Of a stretch of 64,000 nucleotides of DNA, positions 13,407 through 18,672 are shown in pieces. A model generated the notes under the pieces. It ran no database searches. It was not told where the DNA came from and saw only the letters and a program-made list of their open reading frames with translations. This stretch comes from Leptolyngbya sp. NIES-3755. GTDB lineage: Bacteria; Cyanobacteriota; Cyanobacteriia; Leptolyngbyales; Leptolyngbyaceae. Made by a program: the position numbers and the translations under genes. The DNA is taken from the NCBI GenBank assembly GCA_001548435.1, contig AP017308.1:3543030-3607029 (forward strand), given 5' to 3'. The number at the start of each line of letters is the position of its first letter. Within the stretch, counting starts at the first letter, position 1.

Positions 13407-14210
13407 TTATCCACTGATCGCCATTGCCATTTTGACGGCTTCCATACTGACCGTTTGATAAATCAATTTCAGCGTTTCCATTGCAGCTTGATTTGCGGGC
13501 GGTTCGACTTTGATCGGAATGGCTCCTAGTACATCCAGAACGGTTTCGCTACTGGGCGGCGGTGTAATCACGATCAGTGTGGATTCAAGTTGATCCGTAT
13601 AATTCCAGAACTGATCCGGATTGAGCGGTGTCGAGGGACGAGCGATCGCGGAATTCACAACCGTTGACTCTTCTCCCGAACTCCGAATCTGTCTCAGTGC
13701 ATTGATAATTTCGTCTTTCGTCCGTCCACGCAGTTGAAAGAGCACAAACGGGTCTTCTCCAAATCGATCGCCCAACAGATAGTAAACGGCTCCAATATGC
13801 TTACAGGGATTTGCTGGATCGGGACAAGAGCAGCGACTATGAATCGCAGATTTATCGTAGGGAAACAAAGACAGTCCATTGGCGATAAAGACCTCTTGAA
13901 TGTTCTGCGGCATTTCTCCTGATAGAAGCTTGGCAGAAAAAATGGCGCGTTCTGCCATCGTTTCAATCACGTATCCCCATTCTTCATCGGTAAAGCGATC
14001 GAGCGAAAATGTGACCTCATACGGTTCAGGTGCAGTCCCTTGCACTTTTGCCAGTACTTTCGCGCCTTCAAAATCCAGACTCAGCACATTTCCCTGACGT
14101 GCATAATTTCTCGCTCGTGCTAACCTTTGCGTGAATCCAATTCTTTCAAGCAAATCAATCCATTGTTGTACCCACCATTCGCGGTTTGGTTGAGAATAAG
14201 AATCACTCAT
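13407..14210 (-). CDS. SWIM zinc finger protein
   Basis: 267-residue protein with a SWIM-type zinc finger: Cys127-x-Cys129, then Cys136-x-His138 in CSCPDPANPCKHIGAVYYLLG. The N-terminal part (WWVQQWIDLLERIGF) and a downstream helical region complete the usual bacterial SWIM family layout. The gene begins four bases after the stop of the SNF2 helicase. SNF2-SWIM gene pairs are recurrent in bacteria, so the protein probably works with that helicase in nucleic acid binding. The precise role is not established. Confidence 0.88.
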   Translation of the reverse strand: MSDSYSQPNREWWVQQWIDLLERIGFTQRLARARNYARQGNVLSLDFEGAKVLAKVQGTAPEPYEVTFSLDRFTDEEWGYVIETMAERAIFSAKLLSGEMPQNIQEVFIANGLSLFPYDKSAIHSRCSCPDPANPCKHIGAVYYLLGDRFGEDPFVLFQLRGRTKDEIINALRQIRSSGEESTVVNSAIARPSTPLNPDQFWNYTDQLESTLIVITPPPSSETVLDVLGAIPIKVEPPANQAAMETLKLIYQTVSMEAVKMAMAISG

Positions 14211-14214
14211 CGGT

Positions 14215-17200
14215 TTAATCCTCGATTACTGCACTACGATCGAGCAAGAGTAAATCTCTCAATTGATCGGTATTCAATTCAGTTAGCCAGTTTTCACCTG
14301 TTCCCACGACTTGTTCTGCTAAAGCTTTTTTACTTTCGATCATGTCGTGGATGCGTTCTTCCAATGTTCCGGTACAGACAAATTTATGCACTTGAACATT
14401 GCGCTGCTGACCGATTCGGAAGACACGATCGGTCGCTTGATTTTCGACGGCTGGATTCCACCAGCGATCGTAGTGAAACACATGATTTGCACGAGTCAGA
14501 TTGAGTCCAACTCCACCCGCTTTGAGCGACAGGATAAAGATTCTCGGAGCTTGCGGATCGTTTTGGAATCGATCGATCATTTCTTCGCGCTGTTTCTTCG
14601 GAGTACTGCCATAAAGGAAAAGCGTTTCTCGTCCCAATTGCTGCTCTAGATGCGGTTTGAGCAATTTACCCCATTCTGCAAACTGTGTGAAAATTAAAGC
14701 TCGATCGCCTTCTGAAACCGCTTCCTCTAGCATTTCTTCGAGTCGTTGCAGTTTTACCGATCGAGGGGATGCAAGGCTTTCCTCTTTGTTGAACAATGCG
14801 GGATGATTGCAAATCTGCTTCAGTTTCGTGAGCAATGCCAGAATGATTCCTTTCCGCTGGATTCCGTCTGCGGCTTCAATTTCAGCGAGTGATCGATCGA
14901 CAGTGGCTTGGTACAATGCGGCTTGTTCTGCGGAGAGTCCACAGTAAACGGGCATTTCTTGTTTTTCGGGTAGGTCTTGAATGATAGAGCGATCGGTTTT
15001 TAGACGACGCAGAATGAACGGTTGAGTCAGCGATCGTAAGGTTTGCAGAGAAGTCGTATCGCCGTAACGCTCGATCGGAATTGCAAATCGACGTTGAAAA
15101 AAGTTCTTCTGTCCTAAGTAGCCAGGATTGAGAAAATCGAGAATTGACCACAGTTCAGTTAAGCGATTTTCAACTGGTGTTCCAGTCAGTGCAATTCGGA
15201 ATTCAGCTTCAAGTTCTCGAACCGCTTGAGATTGTTTTGCTTCAGCGTTTTTAATGTTCTGAGCTTCATCTAGAACAATCCCTTGCCACGGAACAAGCTT
15301 GAGAGTCCTTAGATCGCGTTGAACTAAGGTATAGCTTGTAATGATTAGATTTGCAGATTGGGCAGCTTTGACGAAAGCTTGATTCTGCGATCGCTTATCT
15401 CCGTGATGTACGATCGCTTTCAACGTTGGCGCGAACTTCTTAACTTCCCGCTCCCAGTTTCCTAAAACTGAAGTTGGACAAACTAATAAAACAGGACTTT
15501 CTAGCTCTTTTCGCTGCTTCAGATCGAGAAGAAATGCAATAAATTGGACTGTGTTATGACAAAGAATATGATTTGCAACAAAGTTATGATGCTCCTCAAC
15601 TTCAAAGTCATAAACCCAACCCTCATAGTTAATGTCTTCAACTTTCTCGATTCTGCAATAGAAGACTTCTTGATCTAGAAGCTGTTGTAAGTCTGTTTTT
15701 GCGGTCAGTACTTTGGTGGTATCTAACTCTGAGTAAGCTTCTAGGGTTTGAGTAGTCCATTTAGAAGGCTTGAGAAGCTGATAGTTTTGCAAGCTAACGC
15801 CGCTCACAATGTCATCCATGTTCTGAACGACACGCTCAAGGCTCTGTCGTGAGAACTGCTGTGAGCCATTGATATAAACAGTATTGTGCATTCCAAAATG
15901 TCGAATCGGAAGCTTTGTATCTTGAACGATTTGCGAAACAATTCGAGAAGCAGGAATGCCTTCAACATTGGTATTGCAAATAGTTGCACAGATCGCTTGA
16001 AGTTTGATTTGTTTTTCTATGACACCAAATCCGATTTCTTCAAGGAAACGACGAGCGCTATTTCCACCGATCGTACCAATGTAGTAAGTCCGTTTGATCC
16101 GAGTTCCATTCGTTGCACACTTCCGTCTCTCTGAGATGCGTAGCCAAATGCCAAATCGTCTGAGTAACGTTGAGAGTTGATTAATGATCGTCGGTGAAGC
16201 ACTGCTAATCTCAATGCTTCTCATGCTTCCAATCACAGAAGCTTCTGCATCAAAATAGTTTCTTAGAAAGATCTGAATACTATCGAGATCAGCGGTCATG
16301 ATAAAAGGTGGAATTGCTTTTTCTGCCGATCGCTTACCCCAGACGTAGCCACGTGATTCTAAAAAGGCTCGATACTGAACGCTCGTTACTCGTAGATCTG
16401 CCGCTTGCCCTCGATTCAGTTCGATACTAGGCTGATTGATTTTGATACCGTAGCGATCGCGTAATCGCTCCAGAATGATTCGCAAATTCTCAAGTACAGT
16501 GACATCTTTCTGAGTAATTCTCACAGAGGATTCACCAGTCGGCTCGTATCCTTCCGAAATTTGCCATGCAAGAAGTTTCACCAAATCTGGATCTTCTTTG
16601 TGTCCCTGCCAAACTAGACGCGATGGAACACAAACATAATCTCCTGGTACAAATTGATTTTTCCAGCCTTCGCTAGTCAATAGATGATGGCGACGAGTGA
16701 TCGTGACAGTACTTCCATCTTCAAGCGTGATACGGCGCAAAGATTCCTGAACTTGTTGGCGATAAAGTCGTTTGATCGGAGCCGTTACAATTTTGTGAGT
16801 TGTTTCATCGATCGAGTTAACCAGCAAACGTTTTTGAGGTTCTGACCAGAATCCCTCACCGTCAAAAGCCAATTTGCCTGCATTCTGATTCCAAATCTCC
16901 TCGGCGGTTTGAAGTTCGCCATCTACGTACAGCTTTGTATCATTGGACAAGCACTTACCCAATCCCATATCGTCGGCTAGACAAGCTCCCAAGCCCCATT
17001 TTTCGAGAAATTTGAGCCATGAAACTCCCCGTAATTGATACGGTCGCAATGTGCCTTTGAATTCTTTTGGCGTTTCGATTTCTTCTGGTGTTCCAGTTCC
17101 GGTTAGCGTTGTGACTAACTCTTGCAGTGCGCCTGATGCTTCAAAACTGACGACGGGAAGTTTCTCGATCGTTTGTGTATCGCCCGTACTAATTCGCAGC

Positions 17201-18672
17201 GCATCTTCGAGTGATAACGTCGTTTGATCTTTTCTGGCAGCAAAAAACGATTGAGCCGATCGAATATCCGATTGCCGCAATTCCACCCATTCGCCGTTGA
17301 TTTCAACTAAAGGTGAATTCTTCGCGACTAATCGATCGAACTCTTTTTTACTCAAGCTCTGACCGCCGATCGACAGTTCCCATTCAAAGTTCAATAAACT
17401 CTGTAATCCAAGCTTGCCTTTCTTCTGTTTAGTAGGCGTTGATGCTTTGATTCGCAGTCCCAATCGATTTGCTAATCCACCTCGATTTGCCAAACTTGGC
17501 GGCAGAACGACCCCAATTCCGCTATCTTGCAATCGCCAGACCACATTCATCAAAAAGTCGTAAGCCTGAGATGGATCGAGTAAACAGGCTTGCGGTCGGG
17601 CTTCTTGCAAACTTGGTTCAATCAGCGGATACAAGCGAGAAGCAAGTCCCAATCCCATCAGTAATGTTTCTTGAGGTCGATCGATCACTCGTCCTTCATG
17701 GTTCAGTTGCTCGACCGGATTTCGCCAGATTGTTGGAGCATCTACGGTGAAATCAGAATCATCGATCGCTTGCAGCAAATATTCAATTTTCCAACTCTGA
17801 TAACTCTCAGCAGGCGGAATGAGTTTCAAACAAGCCCGGAACTGTGCCTGACTTTTTTGCAGCGGTGCTTTCCAATTCATTAACGCCGTTGATAGCGTTT
17901 TCGATTCGGTTTCATTTAACGTTGTCGCTTTTGTACCCAGTCCTTGTATCCAAGATTGTAAAAGTGATGTTGCTCTTTGTATCGTGACTGATTTGCGAAC
18001 TTGAGAATCGATGAACTGATTGAGAAAATCACGGAGCAGATCTTCAGGTTCAATTGGAAGATCAAGCGCTAAATCTTCTCCATTCTGATACAACCGACAA
18101 ACCGAAGGCATTTGACGCACGAAATGACGCAATCGAGTTTGATCCGTTGAACTATCTAGCAGAACTTCCCAATTGTTTAAATTCGGAAGAAACTTCGATC
18201 GAGCTAACAAATCCAATGCCCACCGCGCTCCATGCGACCAAAATCGCAAATCACCGCCCATAAACGAATCATCACCCAAAACACCCAGCGGCAACGAATT
18301 GAGAAATTCAAACGCCTGAGACGGATTCAGCCAAAGTCCTTCGACTTTCCACGGATGTAACACCCATTCGGAAATTGGAGCAGCAGATAATTGTGGTGCT
18401 TCACCGTTGATCGGTAACGCTAAAACTCGCGTCGTCCAATTCTCCAGAGCAGTCTTTCGTGCCCGTTTCGGCGCTTCCAACTCTGGCAACTTCAAACCCA
18501 ACGGTTCGAGAAACGCCAAGAGTTCCGATTGAGACATTGCATAGGGATGAATGGGAACGCCTGGAGTGACGGGCAGCGATTCCAATCTGCGCCACATTTC
18601 GCCCCACAAAAACAAGCCGCCCGACTGCGACTCAGACGTTTGAGCAAACCACCCACCATGTAAAACTGCCAT
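14215..18672 (-). CDS. SNF2-family helicase with an intein in the Walker A motif
   Basis: 1485-codon precursor. The spliced extein would be 1018 residues. The N-terminal half (to about residue 535) is the bacterial SNF2-associated domain (MAVLHGGW, FLWGE). The ATPase core starts LRPYQLRGVSWL; Walker A reads GLGK then is interrupted after Lys573, resuming with Thr1041 (VQFIAFLLDL). Motif II DEAQ (about 1135-1138), GTPVENRLTELW, and motif VI RIGQQRNVQVHKF follow. It translocates on double-stranded DNA by ATP hydrolysis; the cellular role is unknown. Until the intein is removed the P-loop is broken, so activity depends on splicing. A SWIM protein gene follows four bases downstream. Confidence 0.93.
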   Translation of the reverse strand: MAVLHGGWFAQTSESQSGGLFLWGEMWRRLESLPVTPGVPIHPYAMSQSELLAFLEPLGLKLPELEAPKRARKTALENWTTRVLALPINGEAPQLSAAPISEWVLHPWKVEGLWLNPSQAFEFLNSLPLGVLGDDSFMGGDLRFWSHGARWALDLLARSKFLPNLNNWEVLLDSSTDQTRLRHFVRQMPSVCRLYQNGEDLALDLPIEPEDLLRDFLNQFIDSQVRKSVTIQRATSLLQSWIQGLGTKATTLNETESKTLSTALMNWKAPLQKSQAQFRACLKLIPPAESYQSWKIEYLLQAIDDSDFTVDAPTIWRNPVEQLNHEGRVIDRPQETLLMGLGLASRLYPLIEPSLQEARPQACLLDPSQAYDFLMNVVWRLQDSGIGVVLPPSLANRGGLANRLGLRIKASTPTKQKKGKLGLQSLLNFEWELSIGGQSLSKKEFDRLVAKNSPLVEINGEWVELRQSDIRSAQSFFAARKDQTTLSLEDALRISTGDTQTIEKLPVVSFEASGALQELVTTLTGTGTPEEIETPKEFKGTLRPYQLRGVSWLKFLEKWGLGACLADDMGLGKCLSNDTKLYVDGELQTAEEIWNQNAGKLAFDGEGFWSEPQKRLLVNSIDETTHKIVTAPIKRLYRQQVQESLRRITLEDGSTVTITRRHHLLTSEGWKNQFVPGDYVCVPSRLVWQGHKEDPDLVKLLAWQISEGYEPTGESSVRITQKDVTVLENLRIILERLRDRYGIKINQPSIELNRGQAADLRVTSVQYRAFLESRGYVWGKRSAEKAIPPFIMTADLDSIQIFLRNYFDAEASVIGSMRSIEISSASPTIINQLSTLLRRFGIWLRISERRKCATNGTRIKRTYYIGTIGGNSARRFLEEIGFGVIEKQIKLQAICATICNTNVEGIPASRIVSQIVQDTKLPIRHFGMHNTVYINGSQQFSRQSLERVVQNMDDIVSGVSLQNYQLLKPSKWTTQTLEAYSELDTTKVLTAKTDLQQLLDQEVFYCRIEKVEDINYEGWVYDFEVEEHHNFVANHILCHNTVQFIAFLLDLKQRKELESPVLLVCPTSVLGNWEREVKKFAPTLKAIVHHGDKRSQNQAFVKAAQSANLIITSYTLVQRDLRTLKLVPWQGIVLDEAQNIKNAEAKQSQAVRELEAEFRIALTGTPVENRLTELWSILDFLNPGYLGQKNFFQRRFAIPIERYGDTTSLQTLRSLTQPFILRRLKTDRSIIQDLPEKQEMPVYCGLSAEQAALYQATVDRSLAEIEAADGIQRKGIILALLTKLKQICNHPALFNKEESLASPRSVKLQRLEEMLEEAVSEGDRALIFTQFAEWGKLLKPHLEQQLGRETLFLYGSTPKKQREEMIDRFQNDPQAPRIFILSLKAGGVGLNLTRANHVFHYDRWWNPAVENQATDRVFRIGQQRNVQVHKFVCTGTLEERIHDMIESKKALAEQVVGTGENWLTELNTDQLRDLLLLDRSAVIED
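15553..16953 (-). mobile_element. Intein with LAGLIDADG homing endonuclease motifs (467 residues)
   Basis: Codons 574-1040 of the SNF2 gene. Splice junctions: Cys574 (TGC at 16953-16951) right after GLGK, and terminal His-Asn (N1040, AAC at 15555-15553) followed by +1 Thr. Block A is CLSNDTKLYVDGE; block B is VTITRRHHLLTSEGW with the catalytic His pair at about 662-663; block F is YDFEVEEHHNFVANHILCHN. Two LAGLIDADG-like helices are visible, LLAWQISEGYE (about 700-710) and IFLRNYFDAEAS (about 801-812), each with an acidic residue near its end. All splicing residues are present. Homing activity is unproven. Confidence 0.93.

Follow-up and report, generated by a model that had tools for sequence, protein, structure and literature searches.

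The gene for an sll1366-family SNF2 ATPase in the cyanobacterium Leptolyngbya sp. NIES-3755 is interrupted in its Walker A motif by a 467-residue insert, which is very probably a class 1, bifunctional intein with predicted protein-splicing and LAGLIDADG homing-endonuclease activities. The strain is a soil isolate with one chromosome and three plasmids (PMC4796116), and its genome totals 6,761,657 bases in 4 contigs. Coordinates given without a locus or contig label are positions in the 64-kb window, i.e., the whole stretch of DNA that was analysed. The translation of 14215..18672 (minus strand) yields a precursor of 1485 amino acids, within which the insert takes up residues 574–1040 (15553..16953); with the junctions marked by slashes, it reads GLGK/CLSND...ILCHN/TVQF, and its removal leaves an extein of 1018 amino acids. 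A sequence-only reading had placed an insertion of this length at these positions, exactly between the Lys and Thr of the P-loop of an SNF2-family protein, starting with Cys, ending with His-Asn and followed by Thr, and the translation agrees with it on each point. The locus is organized as follows.

14215..18672, minus strand: precursor gene, sll1366-family SNF2 ATPase with intein, 1485 amino acids (SNF2-rel_dom 8.2e-70; NF058636 3.3e-224)
16954..18672, minus strand: N-extein, residues 1–573, ending in ...ADDMGLGK with the Walker A lysine (translation, NF058636 match)
15553..16953, minus strand: intein, 467 amino acids, from Cys1 to His466-Asn467 (translation, profiles)
16618..16953, minus strand: N-terminal part of the Hint splicing domain (residues ~1–112), with Cys1 and T86-x-x-H89
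15994..16602, minus strand: LAGLIDADG endonuclease domain (profile and alignment), residues 118–320 aligning with I-DmoI
16552..16554, minus strand: first LAGLIDADG acid, Glu134 (LLAWQISEG; 48-row alignment)
16243..16245, minus strand: second LAGLIDADG acid, Glu237 (YFDAEASV; 48-row alignment)
15673..15993, minus strand: mostly helical stretch between the endonuclease and the C-terminal Hint strands (residues ~321–427), partly retained in some mini-inteins
15553..15672, minus strand: C-terminal part of the Hint domain (residues ~428–467), with D449, H456, C465, H466 and N467
14215..15552, minus strand: C-extein, 445 amino acids, starting Thr-Val-Gln (Walker A threonine as the +1 residue)
15493..15552, minus strand: 20 codons directly past the site of insertion, where divergence from the seven congeners peaks; candidate tract of co-conversion
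13407..14210, minus strand: SWIM zinc-finger protein, 267 amino acids, 4 bases downstream of the helicase; a frequent neighbour, outside the intein

The profile search proposed in that reading was run and bears out the intein identity. Pfam matches on the precursor are SNF2-rel_dom, DUF3670, Helicase_C, Intein_splicing and LAGLIDADG_3. Splicing-domain profiles exceed their curated cut-offs at both ends of the intein: Intein_splicing (PF14890) scores 75.5 bits (5.2e-21; cut-off 35.8), TIGR01445 intein_Nterm 30.8 bits (cut-off 24.5) and TIGR01443 intein_Cterm 25.4 bits (cut-off 15.6). Moreover, the predicted fold of the intein is that of a Hint domain. Class 1 inteins are recognized by Cys or Ser at position 1, T-x-x-H in block B, a His-Asn end and Cys, Ser or Thr at +1; the NIES-3755 intein has the complete set (C1, T86, H89, H466, N467, Thr+1). 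According to a 48-row intein alignment, from which all catalytic-residue counts were taken, C1, T86, H89, D449, H456, C465, H466 and N467 are identical in all 48 inteins, and Thr occupies +1 in the NIES-3755 gene and in each of the 70 complete loci found by the genome scan described below.

The two LAGLIDADG helices, likewise noted from the letters, are supported by the LAGLIDADG_3 match (PF14528, 54.2 bits, 1.7e-14; cut-off 22.5) and by the alignment with I-DmoI, and each carries an acid, E134 and E237, which we take to be the acid positions of the motif. Across the alignment, the first is Glu in 39 of the 48 inteins (4 gaps, 5 other residues) and the second in 42 (5 gaps, 1 other residue). 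Three full-length inteins lack the first acid (L076, L126, L137), and two rows are mini-inteins (L069, L150). In 16 of 16 pairs picked for closeness, the ratio of nonsynonymous to synonymous substitutions (dN/dS) in the endonuclease part was 0.09–0.44, so that the domain is generally constrained in the family; the NIES-3755 copy, having no near relative, stands outside these pairs. Eleven distinct mini-inteins of 181–305 amino acids with differing deletion ends were seen at the same site (L148–L157, L068, L069; L068 and L151 are one genome). Thus, the family occurs as empty sites, full inteins, endonuclease-dead-looking inteins and mini-inteins.

The intein would be excised by the standard route, in which an acyl shift at Cys1 is followed by transfer to Thr+1 and cyclization of Asn467, and the joined exteins would form a 1018-residue ATPase with a contiguous GLGKT. 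The P-loop is broken in the precursor, so the ATPase should wait for splicing. For the Pyrococcus horikoshii RadA P-loop intein, its presence is stated to disrupt the ATPase (PMC6195587), and conditional splicing has been reported for mycobacterial DnaB. As for the NIES-3755 intein, the sequence-only reading suggested, as inference, that it may give conditional control of the ATPase; the invariant Cys465 is the sole hint of this in its sequence. The endonuclease, in turn, would cut intein-free alleles at the GK/T codon, and repair would copy the intein in; homing from an unsampled donor would be the most likely way of entry into NIES-3755.

The host protein is recognized by NF058636, the “sll1366 family intein-prone helicase”, with 745.9 bits (curated cut-off 550; E 3.3e-224). 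The model covers residues 1–573 and stops exactly at the insertion site; given this end point and its name, the host family is already known to curators as an intein target. The SNF2-SWIM pair pointed out in the sequence-only reading is real and is found with and without the intein, i.e., independently of it. In all seven congeners, the SWIM gene lies 7–8 bases downstream (match to match), and it stands on the same strand beside the helicase in 48 of the 69 judgeable scan loci; in the other 21, no SWIM gene was found within the available flank (8 of 77 loci could not be judged).

Empty sites are abundant. The insert is absent from 54 of the 70 helicase genes extracted, in which GK runs straight into T (49) or S (5). 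The contiguous motif, whose absence from intein-free orthologues was named beforehand as the point that would speak against the intein, was checked in the genus: all seven congeners are empty and read GLGK, then T (5) or S (2), NIES-3755 being the only carrier among the 8 genomes. In the family of the window, the host is above the cut-off in 41 of 42 genomes; 30 of these genes were read, with 29 empty and NIES-3755 as the sole carrier, and for the remaining 11, frame length served as the guide, some frames being partial, so that an intein might occur there. In the phylum sample, where presence was mostly judged by frame length, the host is above the cut-off in 120 of 386 genomes, and 16 of the 120 have frames of intein size (1333–1601 amino acids); the intein was confirmed on extraction in 16 of 16.

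A scan of species genomes with the intein alignment gave 77 distinct loci from the best 80 of 88 relatives. The intein is complete, open and placed at GK/C...HN/T in 70 of them; among the remaining seven, L132 and probably L143 are frameshifted, and five stop at or near a contig end. By record title, the loci are mostly Nostocales and Oscillatoriales, with six titled as ANME-2, Methanosarcinales or Methanophagales archaea (L116, L118, L119, L123, L126, L146), and others as Oscillochloris and Anaerolineales (L135, L137), Chloracidobacterium (L110) and Actinoallomurus (L140, L142, L147). Many of these records are metagenome bins, and the label of a single contig may be wrong; the four archaeal records placed on the trees cluster together on both the intein and the host tree. 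The locus L132 (4001..5400) is a metagenome-assembled genome named Leptolyngbyaceae with a frameshifted intein at the same site; its coverage is low and an assembly error is possible.

Phages and plasmids were considered as vehicles and rejected: 5 records of the phage collection match, none over more than 80% of the query and with a best identity of 29.5%, and 130 plasmid records match, none over more than 80% of the query and all below 60% identity. IMG/VR gave 3 loci, and the frames read in two of them (L158, L160) are SNF2 helicase genes filling short contigs, with no viral gene recognized on either when the frames were judged by eye, without a family search. In L160 (2..4525), an intein of this family has a different kind of host, a single-chain protein which seemingly fuses a SWIM-like Cys/His motif to an SNF2 helicase. 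In the open-licence literature, as far as its texts were accessible, no account of the spread of this intein family was found, which is a weak negative.

The intein tree and the host tree are both quick ones, built under a simple model and with long branches, and the host tree (114 rows) excludes codons -25 to +125 around the site, a conserved stretch whose omission lengthens the host paths. The NIES-3755 host gene falls within its genus, its end branch measuring 0.0054; for the intein, the end branch measures 0.40 and close relatives are lacking. At least 17 changes of intein state are needed on the host tree, many rows of which were chosen as carriers. From NIES-3755 to the four archaeal records, the path measures 0.92–0.94 for the intein and 1.82–1.86 for the host; the respective values are 0.97 and 1.76 for Chloracidobacterium (L110), and 1.22 and 1.59 for Oscillochloris (L135). 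The four archaeal inteins compared pairwise are 59–60% identical to the NIES-3755 intein, while the last 300 residues of the N-exteins show 40–44% and the C-exteins 59–62% identity. In the 12 other rows, all cyanobacterial, the intein path roughly equals or exceeds the host path (0.65–1.28 versus 0.51–1.10). Thus, across domains the inteins lie closer together than the host proteins do, opposite to the pattern within cyanobacteria, which we interpret as a sign that the intein has moved between distant lineages. Naming a donor for NIES-3755 was given up, as the nearest inteins, Calothrix by tree path (0.65) and Brasilonema by identity (66%), are both distant and the flank trees do not settle the source. 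A compositional sign of recent transfer was also rejected: the difference between the intein (GC content 0.430; GC at third codon positions, GC3, 0.381) and the C- and N-exteins (0.451 and 0.468; GC3 0.395 and 0.421) is too small.

The codons just past the site bear on how the intein arrived. In a scan of 626 sliding windows of 20 codons, each compared with the best of the seven congeners, the lowest identity, 0.63 (median 0.90), lies at +1..+21, and the minimum more than 60 codons away is 0.75; at third positions, the lowest flank window is 0.40 (median 0.75), against 0.60 elsewhere. Over codons 0..20, the congeners match one another at 0.75–0.90. In short-window trees, the NIES-3755 end branch is 0.67 (codons 0..30) and 0.29 (-20..+40), compared with 0.03–0.08 in three control windows. 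A comparison with 131 rows, of which 77 had been selected as carriers, places mostly intein-bearing Nostocales nearest to NIES-3755 over codons -20..+40, with intein-free genomes and congeners not far behind; over codons -20..0, G408 and G407 reach 0.83, versus a best of 0.87. We regard the flank as a possible scar of co-conversion with an unsampled donor; PMC10643990 describes both invasion-resistant alleles and the co-conversion of a residue beside the site when an intein invades.

Among the intein-free congeners, two haplotypes are seen past the site, S/TPQFLAFLMYLK-like (L042, L049, L051) and TIQLIAFILLLK-like (L043–L046), which differ over ~100–120 codons and could reflect gene conversion or an intein-resistant allele.

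Several observations weigh against a recent arrival by homing. The third-position minimum of the intein-free G407, 0.35 at +7..+27, is below that of NIES-3755, and the lowest third-position windows of G408 and G402 lie 20–80 codons downstream, so that the stretch is prone to divergence or exchange genus-wide; the diverged flank was for this reason dropped as proof of homing. In the tree for codons 0..30, the end branch of G407 is 0.86; for the same codons, the tree test does not reject grouping of NIES-3755 with its congeners (p-AU 0.378), and the best tree for -20..+40 keeps NIES-3755 in the congener group (support 74). Finally, the identity of the intein to those of other cyanobacteria (0.51–0.65) is similar to that of the exteins in the same genomes (0.58–0.67), and intein and host path lengths run parallel in cyanobacteria, as long retention with many losses would give. 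It may be, then, that the Leptolyngbyaceae have long had the intein, passing it on vertically and losing it cleanly many times, so that in the sampled family it survives only here. This fits the size of its divergence, its long branch, the diverged flank of the non-carrier G407 and the occurrence of an intein, albeit frameshifted, in L132, and we hold it to be unlikely though a serious contender. The 29 empty genes out of 29 others read in the family, seven congeners among them, would call for precise loss many times over, the L132 intein stands closer to that of Argonema (67%) than to the NIES-3755 intein (59%), and the lowest window of the carrier over all codon positions abuts the site. We infer a gain, not a survival, as the direction of change in NIES-3755.

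Another possibility is that the NIES-3755 copy splices with an endonuclease that is dead or dying and a mobility that is lost. Its second motif reads DAEA, where the textbook LAGLIDADG motif has Gly, and relatives without the first acid exist alongside the mini-inteins. Such decay is rather improbable, given an open frame, the presence of both acids and a modelled domain that aligns with I-DmoI. That the insert does not splice at all, leaving the helicase an inactive pseudogene, is hardly credible: no splice residue has been lost, and the two exteins have open frames and closely resemble their congener counterparts. A bolder proposal, highly speculative, would make the family a cross-domain, single-codon mobile element under redox control. 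A reversible bond between Cys1 and Cys465, the residue two places ahead of the terminal Asn, would keep the ATPase inactive, with its P-loop broken, until the cell is reduced. Selection by the endonuclease would have favoured the congener flank haplotype GK-S/T-P-Q-F-L as an allele that resists invasion.

Two observations concern the host proteins. In some intein-bearing Microcoleus-like hosts (L065, L094, L098, L129, L136, L143), the Walker A motif is altered to MGCGK or MGTGK instead of MGLGK. A second, weaker helicase relative (275.9 bits, frame of 1063 amino acids) lies on another contig of the NIES-3755 genome, probably a plasmid (G000:C4:67443-69215).

With its gene pair shared by seven sister genomes free of the intein, and with both endonuclease acids intact in the one carrier, the locus amounts to a natural experiment, in which relatives represent every stage: empty, full, acid lost and mini-intein. 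It allows tests in cyanobacteria, starting from a culture-collection strain, of homing, of co-conversion and of the cost that a P-loop intein imposes. Moreover, the occurrence of this intein at an identical codon in records labelled as methane-cycling archaea, Chloroflexi, Acidobacteria and actinobacteria bears on cross-domain intein transfer.

Both inteins in SNF2 proteins and insertion between the Walker A Lys and Thr are already known. The latter is termed the “classic” P-loop insertion in PMC5050341, where the mycobacteriophage TerL1-a intein occupies the same position in another host protein. Rad54/SWI-SNF2 figures in a table of inteins in PMC5874633, and splicing is reported for the Deinococcus radiodurans Snf2 intein in PMC3196547 and PMC11219805; the latter intein also resides in an SNF2 helicase but is described there as class 3, in contrast to the Cys1 and class 1 set of the NIES-3755 intein. 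The endonuclease-associated inteins TliVMA and PhoVMA (7qss, 7qst), whose host is a V-ATPase, are 20–22% identical to it. Within the NIES-3755 genome itself, DnaB (L002 1000..3867; G000:C1, ~396–399 kb) contains two inteins as read from its sequence, the first at the GK/T of Walker A and the other later, and the sole match found between these and the SNF2 intein is one of 23% over residues 47–334, to the second DnaB intein. The NF058636 family has the same host and a model stopping at the same insertion site; the model describes the N-terminal part of the host and not the intein, of which NIES-3755 has the one copy among the 8 genomes of its genus.
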